This document shows, piece by piece, positions 3,069 to 28,926 of a stretch of 64,000 bases of DNA. Positions within the stretch are counted from its first letter, which is position 1. Each line of letters starts with the position of its first letter. Under the pieces are notes generated by a model. That model saw nothing but the letters and a program-made list of their open reading frames with translations. It searched no databases and had not been told where the DNA came from. The DNA is from Thioalkalivibrio versutus (GTDB lineage: Bacteria; Pseudomonadota; Gammaproteobacteria; Ectothiorhodospirales; Ectothiorhodospiraceae), in assembly GCF_001999325.1 (NCBI RefSeq), contig NZ_MVAR01000022.1, positions 1 to 64,000 on the forward strand, written 5' to 3'. Both the position numbers and the translations under genes were made by a program.

Positions 3069-4106
3069 ATGCAGCGGATGATCGAATGGGCGGAACAGGG
3101 ACGGGTGCCGGACCCGCTCGTGCGGGCGGGGATTCGTCGGCTGCTGGCCGAGCGGCTGCGCGCGAGTGGTGCCCCGGCCGAAGAGGCGATGGAGCGGCGC
3201 TATGCGTTGATCGAGGCGATGCGCGCCGCGCCCGTGGCGTTGTCCACCGAGGTGGCGAACGAGCAGCACTACGAGGTTCCGACCGAATATTTCGAGCGTT
3301 GCCTCGGGCCGTGGCTGAAATACTCCTGCGCCTGGTGGCCAGAGGGCGTGGATGACCTGCGCGGGGCGGAGGCGGCCATGCTGCAGCTGACCTGCGAACG
3401 GGCAGGCCTCGAGAATGGGCAGCAGGTCCTGGAGTTGGGCTGTGGCTGGGGTTCGCTGTCGCTCTGGATGGCGGAGCAATACCCGCGGTCGCGCATCGTC
3501 TCGGTGTCCAACTCGGCGACCCAGCGGGCCTCGATCGAGGCCCGGCGGGATGCGCGCGGGCTGGAAAACCTGACGATCATGACCGCGGACATGAACACCT
3601 TTGCGCCGGAGCAGACCGGGTTCGACCGCGTGGTGTCGGTGGAGATGTTCGAGCACATGCGCAACTGGCCCGAGCTGTTGCGGCGCGTGGCGACCTGGTT
3701 GCGTCCGGGCGGGCAGTTGTTCATGCATGTCTTCGCCCATCGCGAGTTCGCCTACTTCTTCGAGAGCGAGGGCAAACACGACTGGATGGGGCAGTACTTC
3801 TTCCGCGACGGGTTGATGCCATCGGATGATCTGGCGCGGCATTTTCAGGAGGATCTGCGCGTGGTGCGCCAGTGGCGGGTGAACGGCCACCACTACGCGC
3901 GCACCCTGAACGCCTGGCTGGCGCGCCAGGACGCCGCGCGGGACGAGCTGATGCCATTGTTCGAACAGACCTACGGCGCACAGGATGCCGCGCTGTGGTT
4001 CCAGCGCTGGCGCATGTTCTACATGGCCTGCGCCGAATTGTTCGATTATCGCGGCGGGAACGAGTGGTTCGTGTCGCATATCCTGTTTCGCCGGCCCGAG
4101 GCCTAG
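3069..4106 (+). CDS. SAM-dependent methyltransferase, cyclopropane-fatty-acyl-phospholipid synthase family
   Basis: This 345-residue protein has a class I SAM-binding motif (VLELGCGWGSLSLWMAEQ) about residues 121-138, followed by VEMFEHMRNW as in CFA-type enzymes. The start at 3069 (MQRMIEWAEQG) is chosen because the in-frame extension upstream lacks homology-like character. Family members methylate unsaturated acyl chains or other lipids. The usual long CFA N-terminal domain is shorter here, so the substrate need not be a cyclopropane precursor. The next gene starts 3 bases after the stop and encodes a DUF1295 membrane protein. That pairing is often seen with lipid-modifying methyltransferases and suggests a shared lipid pathway (inference). 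Confidence 0.82.
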   Translation: MQRMIEWAEQGRVPDPLVRAGIRRLLAERLRASGAPAEEAMERRYALIEAMRAAPVALSTEVANEQHYEVPTEYFERCLGPWLKYSCAWWPEGVDDLRGAEAAMLQLTCERAGLENGQQVLELGCGWGSLSLWMAEQYPRSRIVSVSNSATQRASIEARRDARGLENLTIMTADMNTFAPEQTGFDRVVSVEMFEHMRNWPELLRRVATWLRPGGQLFMHVFAHREFAYFFESEGKHDWMGQYFFRDGLMPSDDLARHFQEDLRVVRQWRVNGHHYARTLNAWLARQDAARDELMPLFEQTYGAQDAALWFQRWRMFYMACAELFDYRGGNEWFVSHILFRRPEA

Positions 4107-10861: not shown

Positions 10862-13800
10862 ATGCGCTTTACCGATATCTTCATCCAGAAGCCGGTGCTC
10901 GCCACGGTGGTGAGTCTGTTCATCCTGTTGTTCGGGGTGCGCGCGGTATTTGACCTGAACGTGCGCCAGTTCCCCGAGGTGCAGAACGCGGTGGTGACCG
11001 TCAGCACCGCGTATATCGGCGCGGATGCCGATCTGGTGCAGGGCTTCATCACCACGCCGATGGAGCGCGAGGTGGCCGAGGCCGAGGGGATCGATTACCT
11101 CGTCTCCACCAGCCGCGCGGGGATCAGCATCGTCGAGGCCCATCTGGAGCTGGACTACGATCCCAACGTGGCCCTGACGCAGATCGCGGCCCAGGTGGAC
11201 AAGATTCGCAGCGACCTGCCGGCGGAGGCCGAGGACTCGGTGGTGGATCTGTCCGTGGGGCAGGACGTGGCCGCAATGTACATGTCGTTCTACTCCGAAC
11301 GGCTGTCCAACAACCAGACCACCGATTACCTGATCCGCGAGGTGCAGCCGGAACTGGCGACCATCAACGGCGTGCAGCGAGCCGAGATCCTGGGTGCCCA
11401 GAGCTTTGCGATGCGCGCCTGGCTGGATGCCGATCGCATGGCCGCCTTCGGTGTGACCGGGCGCGACGTGCGCGAGGCCCTGGAGCGCAACAATGTGCTG
11501 TCCGCCGTGGGCCAGACGCGGGGTTCCATGGTTGGGCTGGACCTGACGGCGGATACCGATCTGAGTCGTCCGGAGGAGTTCGAGCAGTTGATCCTGTTCG
11601 AGACCGACGGCGACCTGGTGCGCCTGGGCGACGTGGCCGAGGTGGAGCTGGGCTCGGAGAATTACGACACCTCGGTGCGCTTCAATGGCGAGGCGGCCAC
11701 CTTCGTCGGTATCGAGATGGCGCCGGATGCCAACGCCCTGGACGTGATTGCCGAGGTCCGCGACGTATTCGACGAGCGCATCCTGCCGCGCCTGCCCTCG
11801 GGGCTGGAAGGGGAGATCGTCTACGACTCCACGGACTACATCCAGAGTGCGATCGACGAGGTGCTGGTGACCATCGGCCTGGCGCTGGGGATCGTGCTGG
11901 TGGTGATCTACCTGTTCCTCGGCTCGTTGCGCAGCGTGATTATCCCGGCCGTAGCGGTGCCGCTGTCGCTGGTGGGCACCTTCATGCTGATGCTGCTGAT
12001 GGGGTTCTCGCTGAACCTGTTGACCCTGCTGGCGATGGTGCTGGCCATCGGCATCGTGGTGGATGACGCCATCATCATGCTGGAGAACATCTCCCGCCAT
12101 ATCGAGGAGGGGATGTCGCGCATGGACGCGGCGATCCAGGGGGCGCGCGAACTCGCCTGGCCGATCGTGGCGATGTCGACCACCCTGGTGGCGGTGTTCC
12201 TGCCGCTGGGCTTCATCGGCGGGCTGACCGGGACGCTCTTCATCGAGTTCGCGTTCACCCTGGCGGCGACTGTCGTGATCTCGGGCATTGTCGCGATCAC
12301 GTTGTCGCCGATGATGTGCTCGAAGATCCTGCGCGATGGCGCCACCGAGAAGCGCGGACGGATCGAAGGCTGGCTGGATGCACGCTTCGACTCCCTCCAG
12401 CAACGCTATCGTCGGCGCCTGCATGGGGCGCTGAATGACCGCTTCACCATCGCGGTGTTCGGTGCCATCGTGCTGGTGTCCTGCTACTTCCTGTTCGTCA
12501 CCTCGCAGAGCGAGCTGGAGCCGCCGGAGGACCAGGGCTTCGCGTTCTCCATCATGGAAGGCGACGCCTACATGGGCCTGGACTGGCTGGAACGCAACAC
12601 CGAGTTGACCGACCGCTTCTTCGACGAAATCCCGGAGCTCGATAACATCTTTATCGTGAACGGTTTTGGCGGAGGCCCGGGCATCGCCGGTGCCGGCAAC
12701 CAGGCCCTGGGCGGTTTCGTCCTCGCACCCTGGGATCAGCGTGATCGGGATACCGAGACCATCCTGCAGGAGGAGCTGCAGCCACGCCTGGACCGCATCC
12801 CGGCGCTGGAGGTGTTCGCGATCCAGCCGCCGCAGCTGCCCACTCCGGGCGACGGTGCACCGGTCAGTGTGGTCCTCGGCTCCACCGGTTCGTTCGAGGA
12901 GCTGGAGCAGTTCGCCAGCGAGATCATGCAGCGGGCGATGGCGACCGGGCGCTTTATCTTCATGGACTCCGATCTCGACTTCGATCAGCCGCAGGTGGAT
13001 CTCAAGATCGACCGCGAACGCGCCGCCCAGCTCGGGATCGACATGGCCACGCTCAATGCCGATCTGGCAACCATGCTGTCTGGCGGGTTTGCCGGGCGCT
13101 TCGCGATGGAGAACCGCAGCTATCGCGTGATCCCCCAGGTGCAGCGCAGCGAGCGCCTGAATCCGGAGCAGCTGGAAGAGTTGTTCACGCGTACCCGTGA
13201 CGGCGAGCCGATCCCGTTATCCAGCATCGTGACACTGGAAGAAACGGTGACCCCGCGCTCGCTCAAGCGCTTCCAGCAGCTCAATGCCGTGACCCTGTCG
13301 GGCGTGCCGCGGCCGGGGGTGACCCTGGGCGAGGCGCTGGACATCGTCGACGAGATTGCCGCCGACGTGCTCCCACCGGATGTCAGTGTCGACTATGCCG
13401 GACAGTCGCGTCAGCTGAAGGCCGAGGGCAGTGAGCTGGTGGTCACCTTCTTCTTTGCCCTGTTGGTGATCTTCCTGGTCCTGGCTGCTCAGTTCGAGTC
13501 ATTCCGCGACCCGTTGATCATTCTGACCACGGTGCCGATGTCGATCGCCGGGGCACTGATCTTCATCAGCCTTGGGGTGACTTCGCTGAATATCTATACC
13601 CAGGTGGGCCTGCTGACCCTGATCGGCCTGATTGCCAAGCACGGCATTCTGATCGTGGAGTTCGCCAACCAGCTGCAACGCCAGGGCCGGACGCTGCGCG
13701 AAGCCATCGAGGAGGCGTCGGCCCTGCGCCTGCGGCCGATCCTGATGACCACCACCGCGACCGTGGTGGCGATGGTGCCCTTGCTGATGGCCGCCGGGGC

Positions 13801-14277: not shown

Positions 14278-15702
14278 ATGTCTGCCGCCAAGAAGTACTC
14301 CGCGGGCGTCAAGGATTACCGCGAAACATACTGGATGCCCGAATACACGCCGCTGGATACTGACCTGCTGGCGTGTTTCAAGATTACCCCGCAGCCCGGT
14401 ATCGACCGCGAAGAAGCTGCCGCCGCTGTGGCAGCCGAGTCCTCCACCGGTACCTGGACCACGGTGTGGACCGACCTCCTGACCGACATGGATTACTACA
14501 AGGGTCGGGCGTACATGATCGAGGACGTCCCGGGTGACGACGAGTCCTTCTACGCGTTCATCGCCTACCCGATCGACCTGTTCGAAGAAGGCTCCATGGT
14601 GAACGTGTTCACCTCCCTGGTCGGTAACGTGTTCGGCTTCAAGGCCGTGCGTATGCTGCGCCTGGAAGACGTGCGCTTCCCGATCGCCTACGTCAAGACC
14701 TGTGGCGGTCCGCCCATGGGTATCCAGGTCGAGCGTGATCGCCTGAACAAGTACGGCCGCCCGATGCTGGGTTGCACCATCAAGCCGAAGCTGGGTCTGT
14801 CCGCGAAGAACTACGGCCGTGCCGTCTACGAGTGCCTGCGTGGCGGTCTCGACTTCACCAAGGACGACGAAAACGTCAACTCCCAGCCGTTCATGCGCTG
14901 GCGTGACCGCTTCGATTTCGTCCAGGAAGCGACCGAAAAGGCCGAAGCCGAGACCGGCGAGCGCAAGGGTCACTACCTGAACGTCACCGCGCCGACCCCG
15001 GAAGAAATGTACAAGCGTGCCGAGTACGCCAAGGAAATTGGCGCACCGATCATCATGCACGACTACATCACCGGCGGTTTCTGTGCCAACACCGGCCTGG
15101 CCAACTGGTGCCGCGACAACGGCATGCTGCTGCACATCCACCGTGCCATGCACGCGGTTATCGACCGTCATCCGAAGCACGGTATCCACTTCCGTGTGCT
15201 CGCCAAGATCCTGCGTCTGTCCGGCGGCGACCACCTCCACACCGGCACCGTGGTCGGCAAGCTGGAAGGCGACCGCGCCGCGACGCTTGGCTGGATCGAT
15301 CTGCTGCGTGAATCCTTCATCCCGGAAGACCGCTCGCGCGGCATCTTCTTCGATCAGGACTGGGGTTCCATGCCGGGCGTGTTCGCCGTGGCCTCCGGTG
15401 GTATCCACGTCTGGCACATGCCGGCCCTGGTCTCCATCTTCGGCGACGACTCCGTGCTGCAGTTCGGTGGCGGCACCCTGGGCCACCCGTGGGGCAATGC
15501 TCCGGGCGCGACCGCCAACCGCGTGGCCGTCGAGGCCTGCGTCCAGGCGCGCAACGAGGGTCGCGAGATCGAGAAGGAAGGCAAGGAGATCCTGACCCAG
15601 GCCGCCCAGCACAGTCCCGAACTGAAGATCGCCATGGAAACGTGGAAGGAAATCAAGTTCGAGTTCGACACCACCGACAAGCTGGACGTCCAACACAAGT
15701 GA
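14278..15702 (+). CDS. cbbL: RubisCO large subunit, form IA (carboxysomal)
   Basis: This 474-residue protein carboxylates ribulose-1,5-bisphosphate in the Calvin cycle. Catalytic residues are in place relative to the spinach enzyme: K169 in TIKPKLG, the carbamylated lysine K195 in [14 protein letters not shown] with D197/E198, H288 in LLHIHRAMH, and loop-6 K328 in [10 protein letters not shown]. Its position as first gene of an alpha-carboxysome operon and its sequence style (N-terminal [15 protein letters not shown]) indicate form IAc, which is packaged through CsoS2. Expression is probably controlled by the LysR regulator encoded at the operon's end. A perfect 12-bp hairpin separates it from cbbS. 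Confidence 0.99.
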
Positions 15703-16195: not shown

Positions 16196-19100
16196 ATGAG
16201 TAATCCGACATCTGCGTCTGAAGGTCTCTCGGGGCGTGAACGTGCCCTGGAACGGCGCAAAGCCATGTCTCGCAATGGCAAGGCTGCCGTGAAGTCGACC
16301 GACCAAACCAAAGGGAGCAGCCGCTCCGCTGGGGCTGCGCGAGATGCGCGCCAGGCGAAGGCGGACCCTGCCCCGGCACCCCAGGCGCGGGAGCCGGAGA
16401 TGCACTCCAGTGAATCCTCGTCGCAGGTCTCCGTCGAGACTCGCGACACCACCCCCGAGCGCCGCCCGGAACCGGGCGCGCACACGGGTATCTCGAATGG
16501 CCGCCAGGCCGCCCTTGAGCGCCGCCAGAAGATGGCGCGCCAGGGCAAGAAGGCTGTGGGCCGAACCAACACGCGTGCGCAGGCCGCGGGTGGCATGGCC
16601 CCCGCCGGCGCCGAACGTTCGCGCCAGCTGGAAGCGCTGGCCCAGTCGCAGAACGTCGAGGTCGATTGCTCGAACATGAGCGGTCGCGAGATCTGCCGCC
16701 TGCGGCGTCAGGCGCTTTCCACGGAAGGCAAGAAGGCCGTTGCGCCGGAACCGCGCCGTGGGGATCGCATCAAGGGATCGGAACCGGTGGCTGCCGCGAC
16801 CCAGGAATCCAAGAAGGATTGCGGCTGCGGCTGCAAGGGCGAGAAGGCCGAGCGCGATGCGTCGGTAAACAGCGCCCCGAGCCGCGACGCCGCGGTGGTC
16901 GAAAGCGGCTTGGACCAGCTGTGCCACAAGGTCGAGTCCGGGGGCGAAGCCGCCGGTCCGCATCCGATGATCTCGGAGGTTCGCGCGATCTGTATGGCGC
17001 GCCGGGATGCCATGGCGCAGAGCGGCAAGAAGGCCCAGCGTCGGCGTTTTAACGGCGGTCAGGCCCGCGGCACCATGCCGCAGGAAGGCGCCTGGAAGGC
17101 CGCCAAGCGCCAAGGGATGTCCGCCCGCGAAGTCGCTCGGCAGCGCCGTGAAGAACTGTGCAAGCTGGGCCGTGGCTCCTCCGAGCCGGGGCGTCCCTGT
17201 GGCCGGCCACGCCCCGTCGAGGGCGATGTGCCGCCGAAGGTTGAAGAGGGCACCACGCTCGCCGGCAGCCACGTCAGTGGCACGCAAGTCGAGCGGAGCT
17301 CCGGCGTTACCGGCACCGAGGCGGGCAGCTGCTCGTCGGTCACCGGGACCGAATACCTTGGGGTGGAACATTACGAGCGTTACTGTGGCGTGTCCCCCGC
17401 AGGTAATCCGCCTAAGGTGGGCGCTTCGCACACGGCGCACGGCCAGTCCGTCAGTGGCACCGAAGTAGGGCGGTCGAACCGTGTGACCGGCGACGAGCGT
17501 GGGTCCTGCGAGACGATCACCGGCACCGAATATCTCAGTACCGAACAATACGAAGGCTTCTGCGGCACGCGTCCGCAGGCCGGGCCGGCCCGAACCAGCG
17601 TGATGGTCACCCGTCAAGGGGAAGGCGTATCGGGCACCTCGGTCGGGCGTAGCCCGAGCGTTACCGGCGACGAAGCCGGCTCTTGCCGCGATGTGACCGG
17701 TACTGAGTACCTGAACACCGCGGCCAGCGAGGTTCCCTGTAACACGGGAAAGTCGAACGGGGCGCCGGCGAAGGTTGGCGTAATGCATACGCTTCGCGGT
17801 CGTGAGCTGACCGGTTCCGAAGTCGGGCGCTCCGTGAACGTAACCGGCAACGAATATGGCAGCTGCAAACCGGTGACCGGGACCGAGTATCTGGGCACCG
17901 AGCAGTTCCAGGGCTTTTGCGGTACTCGCCCGGAGCCGGCCCCGGCCAAGGTCCAGGAGTCGCACACCATGGAAGACCAGAGCGTGACGGGTGTGGCCGT
18001 GGGGCGTAGCCGGCATGTAACCGGCGACGAGCGCGGCTCCTGTGCCTCGCTGACCGGTACGCCGTACTACAACAAGTCCGACTTTGGTGAACTGTGCGAG
18101 CGCCCGGACGCCGGGGGCGTCCCCAAGGTCGGTGTAATGCACACCCTGCGGGGTCGCGAGGTTTCCGGTACCCAGGTGGATCATTCGATCCACGTGACGG
18201 GTGACGAATATGGTGGTTGCAAGCCGATCACCGGCACGGAATATGCCGGCTCCGAGCACTATGACGCCTTTTGTGGCGGTCAGCGCCCGGAAGCCAGCCC
18301 GGAGAAAGTGACTGTGGGCCGTACCTGGAATCAGCAGATTGTGTCCGGCTCGGCGATCGGGCGTTCCTCGCGGGTCACCGGTGACGAATATGGCGCCTGC
18401 AAGCCGGTGAGCGGCACGGCCTATATCGGTCCGGATCAGTACGACCAGTTCTGCGATACGCAGGATTCGAAGGAGGCCGGGACCCGTGTGGCCGAGCGCC
18501 AGTCCACGCCGGGGCACTCGCTGTCCGGCAGCCAACCGGGCTACGACAAGCGCGTGACCGGTACCGAACGGGGCGCCTGTCAGGACGTGTCCGGTTCCCC
18601 GTATGTGGGCGGTAACGAATTTGCCAAGAGTTGCGCCAGTGCCGCGAGCAGTCTGCATCCGCGTCTGCGCCCGGAAGGGATGGGCATGCAGGCCGCGCCG
18701 GCGCAGCCAGTGGCGCAAGCCGCTTCTCGCCCGATGCCCAACGCCGGCTTCAGCGTGGACACCCCGGCGCGGGTCGCCGCAGAGCGTCGGGAGCGCGTGA
18801 CGGGGACGGCCTATGGCAGTAGCGGAAGCCTGACCGGTTCCATTAACAAGGCGATGGGTCTGGTCTCCGGCACCGAAGAGTTCCGTTATGGCGCCAGCAA
18901 GCAGTCCGTGGCCGCGGAGCCGGTGGAAGAAGCGGAGAAGGTCGGTGCCAACCGGGTGACGCTGAACGGCAGCAGCAATGGCGTCTCCATTACCGGCGAC
19001 GACTGGGGGCGCGGTGACCACGTGACCGGGACCGAGGGCTTCTCGACGCGCCGCAACCAGACGCAGAAGGGTAACCCGCGTGGTGAAGGCCGCAGCGCTT

Positions 19101-19213
19101 ATATCAATCGGGAACTCGAGCGCAAGGAAGCGCCCACGAGCAGGATCACGGGTTCCTCCGGGAACAGCGACGCCGGTTCTCTGGTGACGCTGTCCGGCGG
19201 GGCGCGCGGTTAA
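16196..19213 (+). CDS. csoS2: Carboxysome scaffold protein CsoS2
   Basis: This 1005-residue, largely disordered organiser of the alpha-carboxysome links RubisCO to the shell. The N-terminal region (about 1-345) has short basic helical repeats of the type ALERRxxMxxxGKKAV (five recognisable, for example LERRQKMARQGKKAV). These bind the CbbL-CbbS interface. The middle region (about 360-815) has eight repeats of about 59 residues, each with SGT, VTGxExGxC and TGTEY motifs and paired cysteines. The C-terminal domain (about 830-1005) has further VTGT and ITGSSG motifs that bind the shell. In Halothiobacillus a programmed frameshift yields a short form, CsoS2A. T-rich heptamers that might serve are present but unproven here. 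The start is supported by GGAAG ahead of ATG. Confidence 0.97.
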   Translation: MSNPTSASEGLSGRERALERRKAMSRNGKAAVKSTDQTKGSSRSAGAARDARQAKADPAPAPQAREPEMHSSESSSQVSVETRDTTPERRPEPGAHTGISNGRQAALERRQKMARQGKKAVGRTNTRAQAAGGMAPAGAERSRQLEALAQSQNVEVDCSNMSGREICRLRRQALSTEGKKAVAPEPRRGDRIKGSEPVAAATQESKKDCGCGCKGEKAERDASVNSAPSRDAAVVESGLDQLCHKVESGGEAAGPHPMISEVRAICMARRDAMAQSGKKAQRRRFNGGQARGTMPQEGAWKAAKRQGMSAREVARQRREELCKLGRGSSEPGRPCGRPRPVEGDVPPKVEEGTTLAGSHVSGTQVERSSGVTGTEAGSCSSVTGTEYLGVEHYERYCGVSPAGNPPKVGASHTAHGQSVSGTEVGRSNRVTGDERGSCETITGTEYLSTEQYEGFCGTRPQAGPARTSVMVTRQGEGVSGTSVGRSPSVTGDEAGSCRDVTGTEYLNTAASEVPCNTGKSNGAPAKVGVMHTLRGRELTGSEVGRSVNVTGNEYGSCKPVTGTEYLGTEQFQGFCGTRPEPAPAKVQESHTMEDQSVTGVAVGRSRHVTGDERGSCASLTGTPYYNKSDFGELCERPDAGGVPKVGVMHTLRGREVSGTQVDHSIHVTGDEYGGCKPITGTEYAGSEHYDAFCGGQRPEASPEKVTVGRTWNQQIVSGSAIGRSSRVTGDEYGACKPVSGTAYIGPDQYDQFCDTQDSKEAGTRVAERQSTPGHSLSGSQPGYDKRVTGTERGACQDVSGSPYVGGNEFAKSCASAASSLHPRLRPEGMGMQAAPAQPVAQAASRPMPNAGFSVDTPARVAAERRERVTGTAYGSSGSLTGSINKAMGLVSGTEEFRYGASKQSVAAEPVEEAEKVGANRVTLNGSSNGVSITGDDWGRGDHVTGTEGFSTRRNQTQKGNPRGEGRSAYINRELERKEAPTSRITGSSGNSDAGSLVTLSGGARG
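17273..18637 (+). repeat. Eight tandem coding repeats (CsoS2 middle region)
   Basis: Units begin at 17273, 17450, 17627, 17807, 17984, 18161, 18341 and 18521, giving a period of 177-180 bases (59-60 codons). Each encodes SGT/TGS, then VTGDE or VTGTE, a G-x-C, and TGTEY/SGTAY, usually ending in FCG or similar. Units 3 and 5 are the most divergent at their ends. They are protein repeats, not a CRISPR array. Confidence 0.92.
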
Positions 19214-19240: not shown

Positions 19241-20788
19241 ATGGTGCGTGGTCGCCGCAAAAACAGCTCCATGGGCTCGCGCTTCGCGAAGTCCCGGATT
19301 GCGGCTGCGCGCGCCGCGGCGCCGAGTAGTGCGGTCCCGGTGTCCGCGGTGCCGGCCTGCGGCTCGTCGTCTCCGGACATGGCGCGTGAACTGACCGCGG
19401 GTCACGCGTTGGCGGATGTCCCGATGAACGAGCGGTTGCACGCCTTCGAGCAGGGGTTCCGGGAGCGCTTCGCGCAGCTGGTTCCGGTGCTCAAGGAGGT
19501 GCATGCGCTGCAGCACGAGCGGGACTTCGAGGCGCGGGCGCAGGCGATCGTCGAGGAGCGCCTGGGGTATCAGCTGCCGCAAAAGGCGCTGGAAGATGCC
19601 TGGATCAACGATCTGGATACGCGCGAACTGTATCTGCACGGGACGTTCGAGCTGTTCGATCAGGTGGTCAACGAATACTGGGCCGGCCGTGATGACCTGG
19701 TCGCCGAAGCGGAAAGCGCAATTGCGTATTTCCTCGACTGCGACTTCCACGAAGTGGACATCTCCCCGTGCTCGGACGGCCGACTGCTGGGGTTGCGCCG
19801 CTTCATCCTGCGGCTTCCTGATCTCGCGGTGCGAGTGAAGAGTTACGCCGGGGCGCAGTTCGACATCGAAGAGGACGTACGTCACTGGACCAAGCGCGAA
19901 CTGCTGCGCTTCCGTGAGGGGCGGCCGACCACGGCCGATGTCCCCAGCCGCTATCTGAAGATTGCGGCTTACCACTACAGTGGCGCGGATCCGCTGCATC
20001 AGGGCTGCGCGGCGCACGGCAACAGCGAGCGCGATGCGGCGGACGGCGCCCTGCACCAGCTGCGCGCGTTTCGTCAGGCGATCGAGAACACCTACTGCTG
20101 TGGGGCCTCGGTCGACACGCTGCTAATCGGGGTGGATACCGATACGGATGCGATCAAGATCCACATCCCGGACGCGGACACACGGATGAGCCTGTATCGC
20201 TTCGTGGAAAGCGCGGAGTTGTACCGGGCGACGCAGGGGCTGGACGAACAGACCGCATCGCTGCGGGTGTATCAGGCGATCCAGGACACGATTCACCAGC
20301 AGGGCTGGGGGCGCGGTAACGGCGCGCCGCATGAAGGGATGCTGCGCCTGATCTCGCGGCTGCTGCTGAGCAATATTTCGCAGCTGGATTATGTGGCGCG
20401 CTATCACGGAGGCCATTACGCCGATGTCGGCCACCGCGAGCGTGTGATCATCGTCGGCCAGGAAATCGAGGAGATGCAGGTTCGCAACTTCGCGTACTTC
20501 GCTCACCTGGAGACGATGGAAGAGGGCGCCGAGGGGATGGATGTCGGCGTGAACAAGATTTTTCGCAAGCTGAATGTCGAGCGCGGCCTGCCAATTCCGG
20601 TGGTGGTGCATTACCGCTACGACCGCAAGGTGCCGGGATCGCGGGAGCGGGTCGAGGCGCGTTGTCGCCGGATTCGCAACACGATCATGGATCGCTATCG
20701 CGACCTGGCTGAAAAGGGCCTGATCGGCTGCCACATGGTGATCCGCGACAAACGCAGCGGAAGCCGTCTGGAACCACTGGCCGCCTGA
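19241..20788 (+). CDS. csoSCA: Carboxysomal epsilon/beta-type carbonic anhydrase CsoSCA
   Basis: This 515-residue carbonic anhydrase (also called CsoS3) converts bicarbonate to CO2 inside the carboxysome. Zinc ligands align as C177 (SPCSDGR), H245 (AAYHYSG) and C256 (HQGCAAHG), with the catalytic D179-R181 pair. The ENTYCCGASVDTLLIGVDTDTDAI stretch is a family landmark at about residues 282-305. The basic, low-complexity N-terminus (about 1-55) matches the disordered tail that tethers the enzyme to RubisCO in relatives. The start at 19241 has only a weak upstream GAGGA, so a slightly different start is possible. It follows csoS2 as in other cso operons. Confidence 0.97.
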   Translation: MVRGRRKNSSMGSRFAKSRIAAARAAAPSSAVPVSAVPACGSSSPDMARELTAGHALADVPMNERLHAFEQGFRERFAQLVPVLKEVHALQHERDFEARAQAIVEERLGYQLPQKALEDAWINDLDTRELYLHGTFELFDQVVNEYWAGRDDLVAEAESAIAYFLDCDFHEVDISPCSDGRLLGLRRFILRLPDLAVRVKSYAGAQFDIEEDVRHWTKRELLRFREGRPTTADVPSRYLKIAAYHYSGADPLHQGCAAHGNSERDAADGALHQLRAFRQAIENTYCCGASVDTLLIGVDTDTDAIKIHIPDADTRMSLYRFVESAELYRATQGLDEQTASLRVYQAIQDTIHQQGWGRGNGAPHEGMLRLISRLLLSNISQLDYVARYHGGHYADVGHRERVIIVGQEIEEMQVRNFAYFAHLETMEEGAEGMDVGVNKIFRKLNVERGLPIPVVVHYRYDRKVPGSRERVEARCRRIRNTIMDRYRDLAEKGLIGCHMVIRDKRSGSRLEPLAA

Positions 20789-21439: not shown

Positions 21440-21733
21440 ATGGCAACTGAACGTTTTGGTGTGGCGCTGGGCATGATCGAGACCCGTGGTCTGGTGCCGG
21501 CGATCGAGGCCGCGGACGCAATGACCAAGGCCTCCGAGGTGCGTCTGATCGGGCGCCAGTTCGTGGGTGGTGGTTACGTGACCGTGCTGGTCCGTGGCGA
21601 AACCGGTGCCGTGAACGCCGCCGTGCGTGCCGGTGCGGATTCCTGCGAGCGTGTCGGTGACGGCCTGGTGGCCGCGCACATCATTGCTCGCGTCCATTCC
21701 GAGGTGGAAAACATCCTCCCGGAAAAGCCGTAA
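21440..21733 (+). CDS. csoS1C: Carboxysome shell hexamer CsoS1 (first copy)
   Basis: This 97-residue BMC-H protein forms the hexameric tiles of the shell facets. It has the canonical GVALGMIETRGLVPAIEAAD start and GAVNAAVRAGADS core, with the pore motif near RLIGRQFVGGGY. A clear AGGAGAGAAGAC ribosome-binding site precedes it. It is nearly identical in protein and DNA to the next gene. Assignment to the C rather than the A paralogue is by position only. A perfect hairpin with a T-run follows. Confidence 0.96.
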   Translation: MATERFGVALGMIETRGLVPAIEAADAMTKASEVRLIGRQFVGGGYVTVLVRGETGAVNAAVRAGADSCERVGDGLVAAHIIARVHSEVENILPEKP

Positions 21734-21750
21734 CTCACGGCGGCCGAACC

Positions 21751-21783
21751 CCGTCGGGCCCGGATCGGGCCCGACGGCTTTTT
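21751..21783 (+). terminator. Terminator-like hairpin between the two csoS1 genes
   Basis: CCGTCGGGCCCG (21751-21762) pairs perfectly with CGGGCCCGACGG (21766-21777) around the loop GAT, followed by CTTTTT. This is a textbook intrinsic terminator shape inside an operon. It is therefore probably a partial terminator that lowers expression of downstream genes relative to RubisCO and the first csoS1. Confidence 0.8.
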
Positions 21784-21799
21784 CATGAAGAGGTAGATG

Positions 21800-22114
21800 A
21801 TGGCTAACGAAATTTCTGGTGTGGCCCTTGGCATGATCGAGACCCGTGGTCTGGTCCCGGCGATCGAAGCCGCGGATGCGATGACCAAGGCCGCCGAAGT
21901 GCGCCTGATCGGTCGTGAATTTGTCGGTGGCGGTTACGTGACCGTCCTGGTCCGTGGTGAAACCGGTGCCGTGAACGCCGCTGTGCGTGCGGGCGCGGAT
22001 TCTTGCGAGCGTGTGGGTGACGGCCTGGTGGCTGCGCACATCATTGCTCGCGTGCATTCGGAAGTGGAAGGGATCCTGCCGACGGCACCGACTGCCGGCG
22101 GTTCGGCCAGCTGA
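21800..22114 (+). CDS. csoS1A: Carboxysome shell hexamer CsoS1 (second copy)
   Basis: This 104-residue BMC-H hexamer differs from the first copy at few core positions and has a longer C-terminus (ILPTAPTAGGSAS). Two adjacent ATG codons (21797, 21800) are possible starts. The second is chosen because MANEISGVALGMIETRG aligns with family starts. Only two csoS1 genes occur here, whereas Halothiobacillus has three. No csoS1D pseudohexamer/trimer gene is seen in this window. Paralogue naming is positional. Confidence 0.95.
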   Translation: MANEISGVALGMIETRGLVPAIEAADAMTKAAEVRLIGREFVGGGYVTVLVRGETGAVNAAVRAGADSCERVGDGLVAAHIIARVHSEVEGILPTAPTAGGSAS

Positions 22115-22925: not shown

Positions 22926-23561
22926 GTGGGTTCGAGGGTAATCGCGGTAGTCAATCAGAAGGGCGGCACTGGCAAGACCACCCTGACCATGAACCTGGCC
23001 GCGGGGCTGGCCCGGCGGGGCCGCACGCTGGTGGTCGACGCTGACCCTCAGGGTTCGGCCGGTCAATGGGCCCGCATGGCCTCCGAGGATCGTCCGTTTG
23101 CGGCGTCGGTGTTTGCGGTTGCCGGGCCCCTCGACCGCGAGTTGAAGGCCCTGCGCAAGGACTACGACCACATCGTGGTGGATTGCCCGCCGACGCTCGA
23201 GGGCGGGGCCGTCACCGGTGCCCTGGCGGCCGCGGACGAGGTCCTGATCCCGGTGCTTCCGTCGCCGGTGGATCTGTGGGGTAGCGTCCGTATGGGGCGC
23301 GGGCTCGAAGAGGCCAAGCTCAGGAATCCCGCCCTGCGCCCCTACATCGTGATTAATCAGCTCGAAGTCCGCAGTGCGCTGTCGCGTGCGATGAAACACG
23401 CACTGATGGAGATCGACATCCCCGCCCTGGAGCAGTCGCTCCGCCGGCGGGCCATATATCGGCGTTCTGCGCTGGAAGGCTGTTCCGTCTTTGATCTGGG
23501 CAAGCCGGGCGAGGCGGCGGCGGCGGAGATCGAAGCCATCATCGAGGAGGTGTCGCAATGA
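22926..23561 (+). CDS. mcdA: ParA-family ATPase, carboxysome-positioning McdA
   Basis: This 211-residue protein starts at GTG 22926, preceded by a strong GCAGGAGGC ribosome-binding site. It has the deviant Walker A motif KGGTGKTT and the switch motif VDADPQGSAGQW typical of ParA/McdA. Further landmarks are YDHIVVDCPPTLEGGAV and the C-terminal AIIEEVSQ. McdA ATPases form nucleoid-bound gradients that spread carboxysomes along the cell when paired with McdB. The stop overlaps the next gene's start by 4 bases. The adjacent disordered protein is the expected McdB partner. Confidence 0.9.
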   Translation: MGSRVIAVVNQKGGTGKTTLTMNLAAGLARRGRTLVVDADPQGSAGQWARMASEDRPFAASVFAVAGPLDRELKALRKDYDHIVVDCPPTLEGGAVTGALAAADEVLIPVLPSPVDLWGSVRMGRGLEEAKLRNPALRPYIVINQLEVRSALSRAMKHALMEIDIPALEQSLRRRAIYRRSALEGCSVFDLGKPGEAAAAEIEAIIEEVSQ

Positions 23562-23950
23562 GCAATCTGCAAGACAAGCTGGCAGCCGGCGTGCGCAGTG
23601 CGCGCGAGGACCAGGACAAGGACAAGAGCCCGGACAACACGGCCACGGCCGACGCGCCGGCCGCGGCACAGAAGGACACGAGCCAGGAGCCGGCGAGCAG
23701 CAGCCCGCGGGCTGCCGCGAGTACCAAGGCGGCCGCCACCAAGAAGGCGGCGACCACGACCCGCAAGGCTCCGGCCCGCAAGGCGGCCACGGCGCGCAAG
23801 AAGCCGGCAGCGACGAGGAAGACGGGGACGACCGCCCAGTCGACCCAGGCCAAGGCAACCCCGGGCCGGAAAAAGCCGGCTGCAAAGAAGGAGCCGAAGG
23901 CGAACAAGGGCGGCAACGCGTTGCATCCGGATCGGGTTTGGCCTGACTGA
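23558..23950 (+). CDS. mcdB: Carboxysome-positioning adaptor McdB (alpha type), histone-H1-like tail
   Basis: This 130-residue disordered protein starts in the mcdA stop (ATGA overlap at 23558). After a short N-terminal amphipathic segment (MSNLQDKLAAGVRSARED) it has an acidic/Ser-Ala linker. A Lys-Ala-Thr-rich region follows (about 50-115) with repeats like KKAATTTRKAP and GRKKPAAKK, reminiscent of AlgP/histone-H1-like proteins. It ends in an aromatic HPDRVWPD. Identity as alpha-McdB is inferred from the position next to McdA, disorder and the terminal Trp. It would link the carboxysome to McdA on the nucleoid. Non-specific DNA binding by the basic region is possible. Confidence 0.75.
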   Translation: MSNLQDKLAAGVRSAREDQDKDKSPDNTATADAPAAAQKDTSQEPASSSPRAAASTKAAATKKAATTTRKAPARKAATARKKPAATRKTGTTAQSTQAKATPGRKKPAAKKEPKANKGGNALHPDRVWPD

Positions 23951-24833: not shown

Positions 24834-27155
24834 ATGAGCATCCATCTGGAGGAATACCAGGACCTCCTCGAGGACCTCGGGGGGCAGGCCGCCGAGGTAC
24901 TCGAGGCCTCGTGGCAGGAAGCGACGCGGGCCTTCAGTACGGGTGGTCTGAAGCGCTACTACCTGGAAGGCGCACGCAGCCTGCACTCCCTGGGGCGAGG
25001 TTCGGAGATGGTCGTGGCCTTCGTCCAGGAGGCGCCGGATCTGGCGCAGGAGCTGGGCGAGGATGCGGTCGGAGAGCTGGTGAGCTCGGCGATCAAGATG
25101 TACTCCAAGACGAGTGGGGCGGTCATTACCCTGCTGATCTCCACCAGCCCGATTGCGGCGCGACGCCTGGGCGACCTGCGCCTGTTCGGGGGATATCTGC
25201 GCCTGGTCGACAACCTGCTGGGGCAGGCGCCACGCGGCGTTCGGCCGATGCTGGAACGCCTCGACGAGTTGCTTTCGCAACTGACGCTGGGCGGGTTGCG
25301 CCGTTGGGCGACCTGGGGCGCGCAGGCCCACCGTACCGACCTCGAGGAACAGATCGCCTATTTTGGTCTGGAATCGCCCGAGTCCCGTTCAGTATTCCAG
25401 AAGGAGCGACGCGGCACGCTGTTCGTGGATGTGCAGCGGCGCATCAACCTCTACCTGCGTTCGCTCTGGGCGCGCGATTTCTTCATGCGGCCGACGAGTG
25501 GCGACTTCGAGTCGCGCGAGGGCTACAAGCCCTATATCGAGGGCTTCACGATCTTCCTGCCGGATGCCTTCGACGACTGGGAAGGCCTGACCGGGCTCGA
25601 TCTCTACCGTGCGGCGGCGGCCCATGCCGCGGCCCATGTGGTCTACACGCGGGAAATGCAGCCAGAGGAGGCGCCGCGCGGCGTGACCGGCGTGCTGACC
25701 GAGTTGTTCGAGGATGCCCGCGTGGAGGCCCTGGCAAGCCAGGGTTTCCCGGGTTTGCGCAACCTCTGGACACCCCTGCATACCGCGACCCCGGACGACG
25801 GTGAAGCGCCGCAGGCCCTGCTGGCCCGCACCGCCCGGGCCCTGCTGGACCCGGACTACCGCGACGACCATCCGTTCGCGACCAGGGCCCGTGCGGCGCT
25901 GGCCGAACGGACGGAGGATCTCGAGGCCCCCGGCCTGGCGCGCGCCCTGGCCGAGGCCCTGGCGCCGGAATTTCCGGAGCAGGGCTACATGAACCCGCGG
26001 CAGGTCGCGCCGGATGTGCTCTACCGTGACGACAATCGCTACATGTGGGCGTTCGGGCGCGAGGAAGACGACTTCGAGACGCTGATGGCCAGCGGTTCGA
26101 ACCAGGAACGCGTCTACGTGACCCCCATGGAGATGATCAACACCCTCGATGTCCCTGGCGCTGGGGACGATGCCCAGATGATCATGGTGCTGGCGACCGA
26201 ATGGTTCCGGGACGGCGAAGAGGAAAGCATCAACCAGCAGGAGGGCAAGGAGCCGATCTCGCTGCCGTATCACTACCATGAGTGGGATTACCAGATGCAG
26301 CTGGAACGGCCGCACTGGGTCACCCTGCTGGAGCGGCGTCCGCAGAAGGGCGACGTGGCCGAGATCGACGCGATTAACGAAAAGCACAAGCCGCTGATCT
26401 CGCGCCTGAAGTTCCTGATCGAGGCGATGCAACCGCAGGGTGTCCAGCGTCTGCGCAAGCAGGCCGAGGGCGACGAGCTGGACTTGAACGCGCTGGTCGA
26501 TGCACAGATCGATCTGCGCATGCGGCGGCAGCCCGACGAGCGCATCTACGTGCGCAATATCCGCCAGGTGCGCGATCTGTCGGTGCTGGTGCTGCTGGAT
26601 CTGTCCGAGTCCACCAACGAGATGGTCCAGGGTACGGATACCAGTGTGGTACAGCTGGCGCGCGAGGCCACCGCTCTGCTGGGCGGCGCAATCTCCAAGA
26701 TTGGCGATCCCTTCGCTATCCACGGCTTTGCCTCGGATGGTCGCCACGATGTCGAGTACTACCGCTTCAAGGACTTCGGCGCCCCCTACGACGATCACGC
26801 CCGGGCACGACTGGCCGGGATGAAGGGACAGCTCTCCACTCGCATGGGCGCGGCCGTTCGGCATGCCGGGCATCTGCTGCAGCAACAGGGGACGCAGAAG
26901 AAGCTGTTGCTGATCGTGACCGACGGCGAGCCGGCGGATACCGATGTGCGCGACCCGCAGTACCTGCGTCAGGACGCGAAACGTGCGGTGGAAGAGGTGG
27001 GAAAGAACGGCGTCTACAGCTTCTGTATCAGCCTGGACCCGAACGCCGACGAGTACGTCGAACGGATCTTCGGGGCACAGCACTTCATGGTGCTGGATCG
27101 TATCGAACGGCTCCCGGAAAAGCTGCCGATGCTGTACGCCGGTCTCACCCGGTAG
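24834..27155 (+). CDS. cbbO: RubisCO activase partner CbbO (VWA domain)
   Basis: This 773-residue partner of CbbQ has a long helical N-terminal region and a C-terminal von Willebrand A domain (about 580-770). The domain has the MIDAS motif LLDLSEST, residues D589, S591 and S593. In characterised systems CbbO binds RubisCO through its VWA domain and CbbQ supplies ATPase power. Length is standard for the CbbO family. The only sign of a ribosome-binding site is a poor CCGGA, so its expression may depend on coupling with cbbQ. Confidence 0.94.
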   Translation: MSIHLEEYQDLLEDLGGQAAEVLEASWQEATRAFSTGGLKRYYLEGARSLHSLGRGSEMVVAFVQEAPDLAQELGEDAVGELVSSAIKMYSKTSGAVITLLISTSPIAARRLGDLRLFGGYLRLVDNLLGQAPRGVRPMLERLDELLSQLTLGGLRRWATWGAQAHRTDLEEQIAYFGLESPESRSVFQKERRGTLFVDVQRRINLYLRSLWARDFFMRPTSGDFESREGYKPYIEGFTIFLPDAFDDWEGLTGLDLYRAAAAHAAAHVVYTREMQPEEAPRGVTGVLTELFEDARVEALASQGFPGLRNLWTPLHTATPDDGEAPQALLARTARALLDPDYRDDHPFATRARAALAERTEDLEAPGLARALAEALAPEFPEQGYMNPRQVAPDVLYRDDNRYMWAFGREEDDFETLMASGSNQERVYVTPMEMINTLDVPGAGDDAQMIMVLATEWFRDGEEESINQQEGKEPISLPYHYHEWDYQMQLERPHWVTLLERRPQKGDVAEIDAINEKHKPLISRLKFLIEAMQPQGVQRLRKQAEGDELDLNALVDAQIDLRMRRQPDERIYVRNIRQVRDLSVLVLLDLSESTNEMVQGTDTSVVQLAREATALLGGAISKIGDPFAIHGFASDGRHDVEYYRFKDFGAPYDDHARARLAGMKGQLSTRMGAAVRHAGHLLQQQGTQKKLLLIVTDGEPADTDVRDPQYLRQDAKRAVEEVGKNGVYSFCISLDPNADEYVERIFGAQHFMVLDRIERLPEKLPMLYAGLTR

Positions 27156-27172: not shown

Positions 27173-28207
27173 ATGGCCAGGAAAGGGACCGGCACGACAC
27201 CGCAGAAGGAGTCCGGCCTTCCGCAGGTGATGCTGAAATCCGAACTGCCGGCGCACCTGATCCGGCACGCCACCCTGCGCCAGCTGCAGGTGTTCGAAGC
27301 GATCGTGCGCCTGGGTAGCTTTACCCGCGCGGCGGAAGAGCTTTACCTGACCCAGCCCACCGTCTCCATCCAGATCAAGAAGCTCTCCGGCGCCCTCGGC
27401 CTGCCGCTGTTCGAGTACGTTGGGCGCAAGGCCTTCCCCACCGAGGTCGGGCTGTTGCTGTACGACACCTGTCGCGAGATGCTCGGCGCGCTGACCAACC
27501 TGGAGATGAAGCTCGCGGAAATGCACGGGCTCAAGCGGGGGCGGCTGCGCCTGGCGGTGATCACCACCGCGCAGTACTTCGCGCCGACGATCCTCGGGCA
27601 GTTCGCCAAGCGCTATCCGGACATCGAACTGTCGCTGGAGGTCAGCAACTTCGATCGCGTGCTGCAGCGCCTGGCCAACAACGATGACGATCTGTACATC
27701 ATTGGACACGTGCCCGAGCGGCTGACCGACATCGCGGTGTATCCGTTCGCACCGAACCCGCTGGTGGTGATGGCCAGCCGCGATCACCCGCTCGTCGGAC
27801 AGCGCAACATCCCGATCGAACGCCTGGAACAGGAGACGTTCCTGATGCGCGAGCCGGGCTCCGGGATCCGCGAGGCAACGCTCAAGCTGTTCCAGGAGCA
27901 CGGGATCAGCCCGACGGTGCGCATGGAGCTCGGGTCCAACGAGGCGATCAAGCAGGCGGTAATCGGCGGCCTGGGGATTGCGGTGCTGTCATTGCACACC
28001 CTCAGCGCGGAGGGGGCGGGCGGGCCGGTAGCACTGCTGGATGTGGAGCACTTCCCGATTCACCGCCAGTGGCACATCGTTCACCCCAGGCAGAAGGTCC
28101 TGTCGGTGGTCGCGCAGACCTTTCTCGACTTCGCGATCCAGGACGAGGCGCGCGTGCGCGGCCAGGTCGAGGATCTCCTTGCGGCCTTCAAGGCCCAGGC
28201 GAGCTGA
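27173..28207 (+). CDS. cbbR: LysR-type regulator, CbbR-like
   Basis: This 344-residue LysR regulator has an N-terminal helix-turn-helix (about residues 35-90, LRQLQVFEAIVRLGSFTRAAEELYLTQ as landmark) and a substrate-binding domain. Its likely start is either ATG 27173 or the in-frame ATG 27230. The latter gives the usual N-terminal length. CbbR proteins activate cbb/cso operons in response to metabolites such as RuBP, phosphoglycolate or NADPH. Its position directly after cbbO, 17 bases on, makes autogenous control of the operon plausible. Assignment as CbbR is from context plus family resemblance. Confidence 0.84.
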   Translation: MARKGTGTTPQKESGLPQVMLKSELPAHLIRHATLRQLQVFEAIVRLGSFTRAAEELYLTQPTVSIQIKKLSGALGLPLFEYVGRKAFPTEVGLLLYDTCREMLGALTNLEMKLAEMHGLKRGRLRLAVITTAQYFAPTILGQFAKRYPDIELSLEVSNFDRVLQRLANNDDDLYIIGHVPERLTDIAVYPFAPNPLVVMASRDHPLVGQRNIPIERLEQETFLMREPGSGIREATLKLFQEHGISPTVRMELGSNEAIKQAVIGGLGIAVLSLHTLSAEGAGGPVALLDVEHFPIHRQWHIVHPRQKVLSVVAQTFLDFAIQDEARVRGQVEDLLAAFKAQAS

Positions 28208-28285: not shown

Positions 28286-28314
28286 ATGACAGGCCCGGGA
28301 GCGTACCTTACAAT
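28286..28314 (+). promoter_or_regulatory. Sigma70-like promoter ahead of the CaMKII-AD gene
   Basis: ATGACA (28286-28291) and TACAAT (28309-28314) are separated by exactly 17 bases. Each matches the consensus at five of six positions. The candidate lies 45 bases ahead of the GTG start at 28360. It would transcribe that gene separately from the carboxysome operon. Confidence 0.55.
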
Positions 28315-28359
28315 TCACGGATTACCCGGCCGCTAACGGCCGAACTCGGAGATCAGTCA

Positions 28360-28926
28360 GTGACCACGAGCAGCCGACCGCGTATCAGCGGCACCCAGTT
28401 CATCAACGCCGACCAGGCGCCGCGCGCGCGCCTGAGCCTGAGCGCCTCGCACCGCGACCAGCACCATCCGGTGACCGGGACCGGCGGTGATCCCCGGTTC
28501 GGCGCGATCGATACCCCAGCCAACGAGAGCTGCGTGGTCTGTGCGCCGGCGACCCGCCGACTGGCCGAGGAACTGTTCGAGGGCTGGAACGCGGCCCTGC
28601 AGACGGGTGACGCGCGCAAGGTCGCCGAGCGCTATGCCGAGGACGCTGTTCTGCTCCCGACCGTCTCCAACGTCCCGCGCACCACGCACGCCGAGATCCA
28701 GGACTACTTCGAGCACTTCCTGGAGAAGAAGCCCTTTGGGACGATCAACACCCGCAACGTGAAGCTTGGCTGCAACAAGCTCACCGATGCCGGCACCTAC
28801 ACCTTTCGCGTGACGGATGGCGGTGAGACCAAGGAAGTCCCCGCGCGCTACACCTTCGTCTACGAGAACCGTGACGGGGGATGGAAGATCGTCCATCACC
28901 ACTCCTCGATGATGCCGACCGCCTGA
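28360..28926 (+). CDS. CaMKII-association-domain / SgcJ-EcaC family protein with CsoS2-like N-terminal tail
   Basis: This 188-residue protein starts at GTG 28360. The C-terminal part (about 60-188) resembles the NTF2-like CaMKII-association/SgcJ-EcaC fold, with ELFEGWNAALQTGDARKVA, AVLLPTVSN and the end GGWKIVHHHSSMMP. The N-terminal ~55 residues are disordered. They carry PRISGTQF, HHPVTGTGGDP and SCVVCAP, echoing the SGT and VTGT elements of the CsoS2 middle and C-terminal repeats. It lies just after the operon with its own promoter. Targeting to the carboxysome is inference. The domain's ligand is unknown. No signal peptide is seen. Confidence 0.8.
   Translation: MTTSSRPRISGTQFINADQAPRARLSLSASHRDQHHPVTGTGGDPRFGAIDTPANESCVVCAPATRRLAEELFEGWNAALQTGDARKVAERYAEDAVLLPTVSNVPRTTHAEIQDYFEHFLEKKPFGTINTRNVKLGCNKLTDAGTYTFRVTDGGETKEVPARYTFVYENRDGGWKIVHHHSSMMPTA

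Follow-up and report, generated by a model that had tools for sequence, protein, structure and literature searches.

How enzymes are recruited into the alpha-carboxysome is unsettled; the routes described in the excerpts of the literature on which this study draws are the scaffold CsoS2, a Rubisco-binding peptide of the carbonic anhydrase CsoSCA, and non-specific contacts between CsoSCA and the shell. A gene directly behind the carboxysome locus of the soda-lake sulfur bacterium Thioalkalivibrio versutus (contig NZ_MVAR01000022.1; "the window" is the whole 64,000-nucleotide stretch that was analysed) raises the question of whether a further route exists, the preliminary description having seen in it a CaMKII-association-domain protein with a CsoS2-like N-terminal tail that might be a client, a decoy or a shell-binding protein. 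The analysis points, with somewhat better than even confidence, to a non-secreted iota-carbonic anhydrase (iota-CA) that is alpha-carboxysome cargo, docked on the shell by its CsoS2-like tail as a second carbonic anhydrase. Articles cited by PMC number are represented by excerpts, and statements attributed to them refer to those excerpts. Numbers beginning with G and L denote genomes and loci.

The gene behind cbbR and its enzyme domain

The open reading frame begins with GTG and encodes 188 amino acids, its end coordinate including the stop codon (Table 1). A gap of 152 nt separates it from cbbR, the final gene of the alpha-carboxysome locus, confirming the placement right after cbbR in the preliminary description; the good sigma70-like promoter of its own that was also claimed there was found again, and in an alignment of upstream regions a pair of the ATGACA/TACAAT type can be seen by eye in 8 of the 12 genus loci, one of them the window. 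GGAGA is present in all 12 rows of that alignment. The locus runs in the order cbbL, cbbS, csoS2, csoSCA, csoS4A, csoS4B, two csoS1 genes, a ferritin-like gene, a pterin dehydratase-like gene (acRAF), a ParA gene, a basic 130-residue ORF, cbbQ, cbbO and cbbR, in which cbbL, cbbS, csoS4B, cbbO and cbbR are what we take these genes to be from their sequence. The basic ORF (23558-23950), which is of low complexity, has no Pfam match and evolves fast (pN/pS 0.597); it is perhaps an McdB-type partner of the ParA gene. A pseudogene reading of the iota-CA frame was rejected, as the frame is open in 12 genus loci and pN/pS is low.

Table 1. Positions of the iota-CA gene, its parts and the neighbouring carboxysome genes in the window.
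Feature	Position	Strand	Basis or remark
cbbL	14278-15702		first of the listed locus genes, followed by cbbS
csoS2, source of the compared VTG motifs	16196-19213	+	PF12288
csoSCA, canonical carboxysomal carbonic anhydrase, intact	19241-20788	+	PF20686, PF20687, PF08936
two csoS1 shell hexamer genes	21440-22114 (21440-21733, 21797-22114)	+	PF00936 (first gene scanned)
cbbO	24834-27155		precedes cbbR
cbbR (LysR-type regulator), immediately preceding the iota-CA gene	27173-28207	+	sequence
sigma70-like promoter of the iota-CA gene, ATGACA-17-TACAAT	28286-28314	+	1 found against 0.1 expected in shuffles
GGAG, likely ribosome-binding site, 8 nt 5' of GTG	28348-28351	+	sequence
putative iota-CA with N-terminal CsoS2-like tail, 188 aa	28360-28926	+	ORF, domain searches, alignment
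N-terminal tail, residues 1-60, without a signal-peptide-like hydrophobic stretch	28360-28539	+	alignments, hydropathy
box 1, RPRISGTQFI, triplet [VI][ST]G	28375-28404	+	44 of 44 tails, which were cut using it as anchor
box 2, RLSLSASHR, without an established CsoS2 counterpart	28429-28455	+	alignments
box 3, HPVTGTG, second triplet	28465-28485	+	spaced 27-29 residues from the first triplet in 39 of 44 tails
box 4, AIDTP, near the enzyme-domain junction	28504-28518	+	alignments
iota-CA domain (NTF2-like, CaMKII_AD / SgcJ-EcaC)	28540-28923	+	PF08332, TIGR02246, structure and profile matches
HHHSS motif, residues 179-183	28894-28908	+	sequence

Residues 71-186 match the CaMKII_AD family PF08332 (E 2.4e-21; 76.7 bits against a cut-off of 22.1), and the NCBIfam SgcJ/EcaC model TIGR02246 is matched as well (E 4.6e-18; 65.4 bits against 33.95). 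Among solved structures, Xanthomonas 3h51 is the nearest (E 3e-38), followed by the iota-CA 7c5x (E 4.5e-7). In PMC8425729, 3h51 is treated as a Xanthomonas iota-CA, bacterial iota-CAs are said to carry the annotation SgcJ/EcaC oxidoreductase, and (H)HHSS is given as the hallmark of the class; HHHSS is invariant in all 14 rows of the protein alignment, and in its domain and HHSS the window protein resembles both Xanthomonas 3h51 and Burkholderia BteCA-iota, which are of the SgcJ/EcaC type. Residues T101, Y116, H181 and S182/S183 are likewise invariant in the 14 rows and common to 3h51, and may correspond to Thr106, Tyr124, His197 and Ser199 of AspCA, a chain that was not among the matches. On these sequence grounds the protein is by family an iota-CA, and it is predicted to be catalytically active. 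Bacterial iota-CAs generally have a pre-sequence of at least 19 residues (PMC8425729), in whose place a conserved tail is found here.

This assignment alters the preliminary description in two respects. The NTF2-like PF08332 domain recognised there is present, but a CaMKII-type signalling partner is rejected by the combination of PF08332, TIGR02246 and the C-terminal HHHSS, which marks an iota-CA; a decoy without an enzyme domain is likewise discarded, as an iota-CA domain would make the protein an enzyme cargo. The frame is also not a CsoS2 fragment; neither the CsoS2 middle-region model PF12288 nor the CsoSCA catalytic-domain model PF20686 matched it at E up to 1.

The N-terminal tail and its likeness to CsoS2

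Relatives were collected by scanning one genome per species, 84,980 species in all, with two peptide patterns, a scan that covers relatives carrying either pattern. The best 80 of 106 confirmed places were sorted by reading into 44 loci (43 genomes) with the tail and 36 without it. In the window protein the two motifs named in the preliminary description are present (PRISGTQF at residues 7-14 and HHPVTGTGGDP at residues 35-45), and the genus alignment holds RPRISGT[QR]FI, SLSAS[HY]RDQ, HPVTGTG and AIDTP nearly invariant. Between the triplets ISG (residues 9-11) and VTG (37-39) the start-to-start distance is 28 residues, which agrees with the spacing given earlier as about 28 and differs from the roughly 8 of the CsoS2 repeats. 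Their form, [VI][ST]G, is that of the published CsoS2 shell-binding motif: the (V/I)(T/S)G triplets of CsoS2 bind the shell, contact His79 of CsoS1A and are required for carboxysome function (PMC11365436, PMC10484944). The window csoS1 genes encode the His in AAHII, which is residue 80 in the first of them.

Among the best 80 of 106 places, [VI][ST]G[TS] stands near the start of each of the 44 tails, which were cut with the first triplet as anchor. Two triplets occur in 42 of these 44, at a distance of 27-29 residues in 39 and of 16 residues in three (L114, L115 and L120, in which the box 3 triplet is absent); the tails of L106 and L107 have one triplet only, leaving five of 44 without a second triplet at the place of box 3. 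By comparison, 33 of the 36 tailless N-terminal extensions from the same 80 places, some of them very short, contain no triplet. Residue shuffles of the tails yield two triplets in 0.7% of draws. Two triplets per tail are thus more than chance would give, yet the tails are related and were cut by the first-triplet anchor, and therefore do not represent 44 free trials. A mean hydropathy of 2.0 over 12 residues is reached by none of the 44 tails, against 18 of the 36 tailless extensions (best 80 of 106 places). The tail may be disordered.

The constraint on the tail was estimated as pN/pS over 13 loci or 24 sequences, out of the tailed set of 44 loci and the window. In 13 Thioalkalivibrio loci the four boxes, which were picked from an alignment already seen, give 0.041, compared with 0.229 for the whole tail, 0.387 for the tail outside the boxes and 0.129 for the enzyme domain; the boxes are therefore tight and the remaining tail is loose. 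Over the 24 more diverse sequences the whole tail (0.406) exceeds the domain (0.213). In the same Thioalkalivibrio genomes CsoSCA residues 12-55 reach 0.748, a value that alignment gaps may inflate, and the McdB-like basic ORF after parA has 0.597.

Comparison of the tail with CsoS2 gave a graded picture. A tail profile built from 32 of the 44 tails after an 85% identity cut was run against 4552 ORFs of the window and 36 loci (L091-L122 and L159-L162, the latter including repeat genomes of the set; L079-L090 were left out), and the CsoS2 proteins rank 39-43 (E 0.001-0.03), directly behind 38 iota-CAs. For 23 of 25 CsoS2 proteins (L177, which is cut off, and L046, a repeat, were set aside), the summed tail-to-CsoS2 score is reached by 0-5 of 200 composition shuffles per protein; single domain scores lie mostly within the shuffle range. 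Alignment of the tails with the CsoS2 C-terminal or middle region by hhalign has a probability under 1% and is not significant, and HMMs of the CsoS2 C-terminal peptide and of the VTGTEG segment do not single out the iota-CA, whose best ranks are 53 and 45, with 40 and 32 non-CsoS2 ORFs, respectively, scoring above it. Extended homology between tail and CsoS2 was rejected on these results, and the claim is therefore one of a short linear motif with its own spacing. The tail fares better than the earlier caution that the match could be chance had suggested; similarity to CsoS2 beyond the triplets is not significant. CsoS2 and the tail have the (V/I)(T/S)G triplets in common; CsoS2 is a scaffold with PF12288, N-repeats, an SGGARG end and a triplet spacing of about 8, whereas the tailed iota-CA, which has no SGGARG end, would be a cargo enzyme with a spacing of 28.

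In genome G076, the tail ITGTSGIDHSQAAGVSLSNSLR looks by eye like ITGSSGNTKHGASVTVSGGARA, the C-terminal peptide of that genome's CsoS2; this likeness, which the HMM test does not support, is only a lead.

Distribution of the tail among genomes with carboxysomes

The tailed proteins of the best 80 of 106 places come from Thioalkalivibrio, Guyparkeria, Halothiobacillus MAGs, Ectothiorhodospiraceae MAGs, Methylonatrum, Chromatiales MAGs, Thiomicrorhabdus, Thiomicrospira and others. CsoS2 was found in 42 of the 43 tailed genomes, the exception being the 1.1 Mb MAG of L112, whereas the same model found it in 0 of 36 genomes of tailless homologues (best 80 of 106 places). Tails equally common in organisms without carboxysomes were to have counted against the reading of the preliminary description; the counts instead favour that reading. 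In a draw of 370 gammaproteobacterial genomes, which overlaps with the scan and is not independent of it, 76 are CsoS2-positive and 29 give an iota-CA profile match with an E of at most 1e-5; CsoS2 is present in all 10 genomes whose match covers the tail and in none of the 19 whose match does not (HHSS occurs in 13 of these 19, and the six weakest, without HHSS, may be other NTF2-like proteins). Within the genus, the full-length protein occurs in 12 of 25 genomes (11 of 24 relatives and the window genome), and CsoS2, present in the window genome, in 22 of 25; all 12 carriers are among these 22, and the other 10 are without the iota-CA gene.

Fisher tests of the association between tail and CsoS2 give 5e-8 and 9e-22. 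In a quick-method tree (130 columns, 83 rows), 46 tailed rows form a group with two tailless ones (SH-aLRT 99), a topology uniting the tailed rows in one clade is not rejected (p-AU 0.65), and the starred branches hold one independent contrast (sign test p 1). The Fisher values therefore overstate the evidence; the tailed proteins may be one clade and the association may not represent many independent events. One of the two tailless rows, L138, is a long-branch iota-CA from a gammaproteobacterial MAG without CsoS2; its start resembles a signal peptide, and a long extension follows at the C-terminus.

A shell-protein or csoS2 gene lies in 22 of the 44 tailed loci (best 80 of 106 places), as found by tblastn with the window proteins, a search that under-detects divergent loci. 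The distance from csoS2 to the unlinked tailed gene is about 1.28 Mb in G421 and 81 kb in G436; in L091-L094 the two genes are on separate contigs, the flanks of the tailed gene being free of cso matches for 10 kb on each side. The tail is retained in these unlinked genes.

Several genomes hold more than one iota-CA or an altered one. In T. thiocyanoxidans (G020, L088/G404; strain ARh2, L015/L211), a tandem paralogue, the other tailless row of the tree, directly follows the tailed gene; its domain is 71% identical, and a signal-peptide-like start, containing one VSGT, replaces the tail by eye. G414 and G418 have the tailed enzyme and a further iota-CA match that does not cover the tail. The genomes of L204-L206 (G076, G518 and G523, taken as Thiomicrospira) contain a second tailed copy, divergent and some 2 kb away from the other, that retains box 1 and has no second triplet. 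Thiomicrorhabdus marina has two one-triplet iota-CA genes (L106, L107), each with a cbbR-like gene about 1 kb before it, along with two csoS2 matches (G422) and two csoSCA matches in what is apparently the same genome (G499). The main counter-example comes from G491 and G474, in which a tailless iota-CA stands behind an FKBP_C domain (PF00254, 5e-8 and 2.1e-5); these fused genes (L207 of G491, - strand, HHHSS near 3249; L208 of G474, + strand, near 13524) lie shortly after cbbO in cso loci without csoSCA. The fusion is presumably a different architecture of carboxysomal carbonic anhydrase, and the tail is therefore not the sole way.

In work from 2024, Wieschollek et al. reportedly found an iota-CA in Thiomicrospira carboxysome preparations and found it to be needed at low CO2. 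A carboxysomal iota-CA is already known from Thiomicrospira. The enzyme is named as carboxysomal in PMC12628692 and PMC12646314, the latter adding that it might be the functional enzyme there, and PMC12918739 and PMC13159521 make a similar statement for sulfur oxidisers, with the genus not named in the excerpts; these statements go back to Wieschollek et al. According to PMC9164163, all Thiomicrospira cso loci are without csoSCA and hold a degraded gene with a CsoSCA-like N-terminus. Of 55 genomes of the Thiomicrospira family, 24 carry an iota-CA, tailed in 22 (a count that overlaps the tailed set of the scan) and not in two; CsoS2 was found in all 22 and in both of the others, and the 12 CsoS2-negative genomes are all without an iota-CA. 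Among the 43 CsoS2-positive genomes, the 10 without CsoSCA all have an iota-CA (eight tailed, two FKBP fusions), and of the 33 that encode CsoSCA 14 carry a tailed enzyme. The genus to which G076 belongs, complete in this draw, is taken as Thiomicrospira because the match coordinates of G519, G523 and G381 equal those of named Thiomicrospira loci; the tailed enzyme occurs there in 8 of 8 genomes and CsoSCA in 0 of 8. In the 370-genome draw CsoSCA is present in 71 of 76 CsoS2-positive genomes, and of the five without it G076, G133 and G381 have a tailed iota-CA; G066 and G393, in which csoS2 lies at a contig end, were not scored as having lost csoSCA. The Thiomicrospira case is alike in enzyme class, in the tail (8 of 8 genus genomes) and in its setting in a carboxysome-bearing sulfur chemoautotroph, but there the iota-CA replaces CsoSCA, whereas in the Thioalkalivibrio window csoSCA is intact and the iota-CA is additional, with its own promoter.

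A proposed docking route and its alternatives

In the proposed mechanism, the tail of about 60 residues would be the recruiting element of the iota-CA. Its two CsoS2-type [VI][ST]G motifs would dock where the CsoS2 triplets bind, on the inward-facing CsoS1 surface of the shell, a binding suggested by the motif and its conservation; docking would bring the enzyme into the carboxysome and hold it at the inner shell face, where bicarbonate enters. The Thioalkalivibrio enzyme, probably located inside the carboxysome, would be expressed from its own promoter and dehydrate bicarbonate alongside CsoSCA as a second such enzyme, and in Thiomicrospira, without CsoSCA, the tailed iota-CA would be the known carboxysomal carbonic anhydrase. 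A cytosolic carbonic anhydrase reportedly short-circuits the CO2-concentrating mechanism (CCM; PMC10614612), and PMC10880623 finds it "a bit alarming" how many cytoplasmic carbonic anhydrases are predicted for organisms with carboxysomes; given this harm and the 0 of 44 hydrophobic tails (best 80 of 106 places), encapsulation is the natural solution. An iota-CA may also suit alkaline conditions with low cofactor solubility (PMC12918739). Metal-free iota-CAs are, on the other hand, probably not capable of bicarbonate dehydration (PMC8425729, section 3.2), which would weigh against the proposed role if valid here. The client or shell-binding reading of the preliminary description is supported in part: the tail tracks CsoS2 genomes, but extended similarity to CsoS2 is not significant.

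Even if the enzyme is carboxysomal, its tail could bind Rubisco as the CsoSCA N-terminus does and resemble the CsoS2 triplets by coincidence, a reading that we consider unlikely, though it deserves serious weight. CsoSCA is recruited via a disordered Rubisco-binding N-terminal peptide that is diverse and has no cross-species consensus (PMC10614612), and the tails contain several conserved arginines; as N-termini recruiting a carbonic anhydrase the two would be alike, but the CsoSCA peptide binds Rubisco and varies fast (0.748 over residues 12-55, perhaps gap-inflated, against 0.229 for the tail). The Rubisco-binding motif RxxxxxRRxxxxxxGK, of which the window CsoS2 has four, occurs in 0 of 44 tails (best 80 of 106 places), an absence that is weak against Rubisco binding because the pattern also misses 7 of 25 control CsoS2 proteins, including those of G076, G207 and G381 in the Thiomicrospira family (L159-L161). 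What speaks for the shell instead is that the conserved tail positions read I/V, S/T, G, as the shell-binding triplet does. Somewhat less probable is recruitment chiefly by the folded domain, with the tail stabilising the dimer, capping the active site or regulating the enzyme: the tailless FKBP-fused iota-CAs in CsoSCA-less cso loci suggest that the tail may be dispensable for recruitment, box 4 is well conserved near the domain junction, and CsoSCA also enters minishells via non-specific CsoS1A contacts (PMC12646314), but tailless relatives of the same fold occur in genomes without CsoS2 (0 of 36 positive; best 80 of 106 places) and the tail is constrained at its triplets.

A cytosolic iota-CA without a carboxysome role, whose tail is a lineage mark of carboxysome-bearing sulfur chemoautotrophs, appears improbable. 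It would fit the compatibility of the tailed proteins with a single clade, by which the CsoS2 association is perhaps inherited, and the T. thiocyanoxidans paralogue with its signal-peptide-like start; against it stand the reported harm of a cytosolic carbonic anhydrase to the CCM (PMC10614612), the naming of the Thiomicrospira enzyme as carboxysomal (PMC12628692, PMC12646314) and the family pattern, in which 10 of 10 CsoS2-positive genomes without CsoSCA have an iota-CA against 14 of 33 with CsoSCA. That the likeness to CsoS2 is chance, and the tail conserved for some function outside carboxysome biology, has very little credence; the triplets are short and the profile comparison is not significant, but two triplets in 42 of 44 tails, 27-29 residues apart in 39, and their absence from 33 of 36 tailless extensions, some very short, argue otherwise (best 80 of 106 places).

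Building on the shell-docking reading, a broader view may be put forward tentatively, as falling somewhat short of an even chance: the (V/I)(T/S)G pocket of CsoS1 would be a general dock open to enzymes besides CsoS2, and the tail a native peptide that targets cargo independently of CsoS2 as a two-motif clamp, which would have enabled the addition of a carbonic anhydrase and the displacement of CsoSCA in Thiomicrospira, with the FKBP fusions as a second solution.

A literature search, with Wieschollek et al. 2024 outside its coverage, returned no description of this iota-CA tail, the novelty of which is not established. The excerpts of the papers on T. thiocyanoxidans mention csoS3 alone, and its genome (G404, the genome of L088) has two iota-CA genes; carboxysomal carbonic anhydrases can go unnoticed under the names "CaMKII association domain" or "SgcJ/EcaC oxidoreductase". 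If the shell-docking reading is true, a short conserved peptide that grips the shell directly would add a recruitment route, offer engineers a portable targeting tag and shed light on how the carboxysomal carbonic anhydrase is swapped or doubled.
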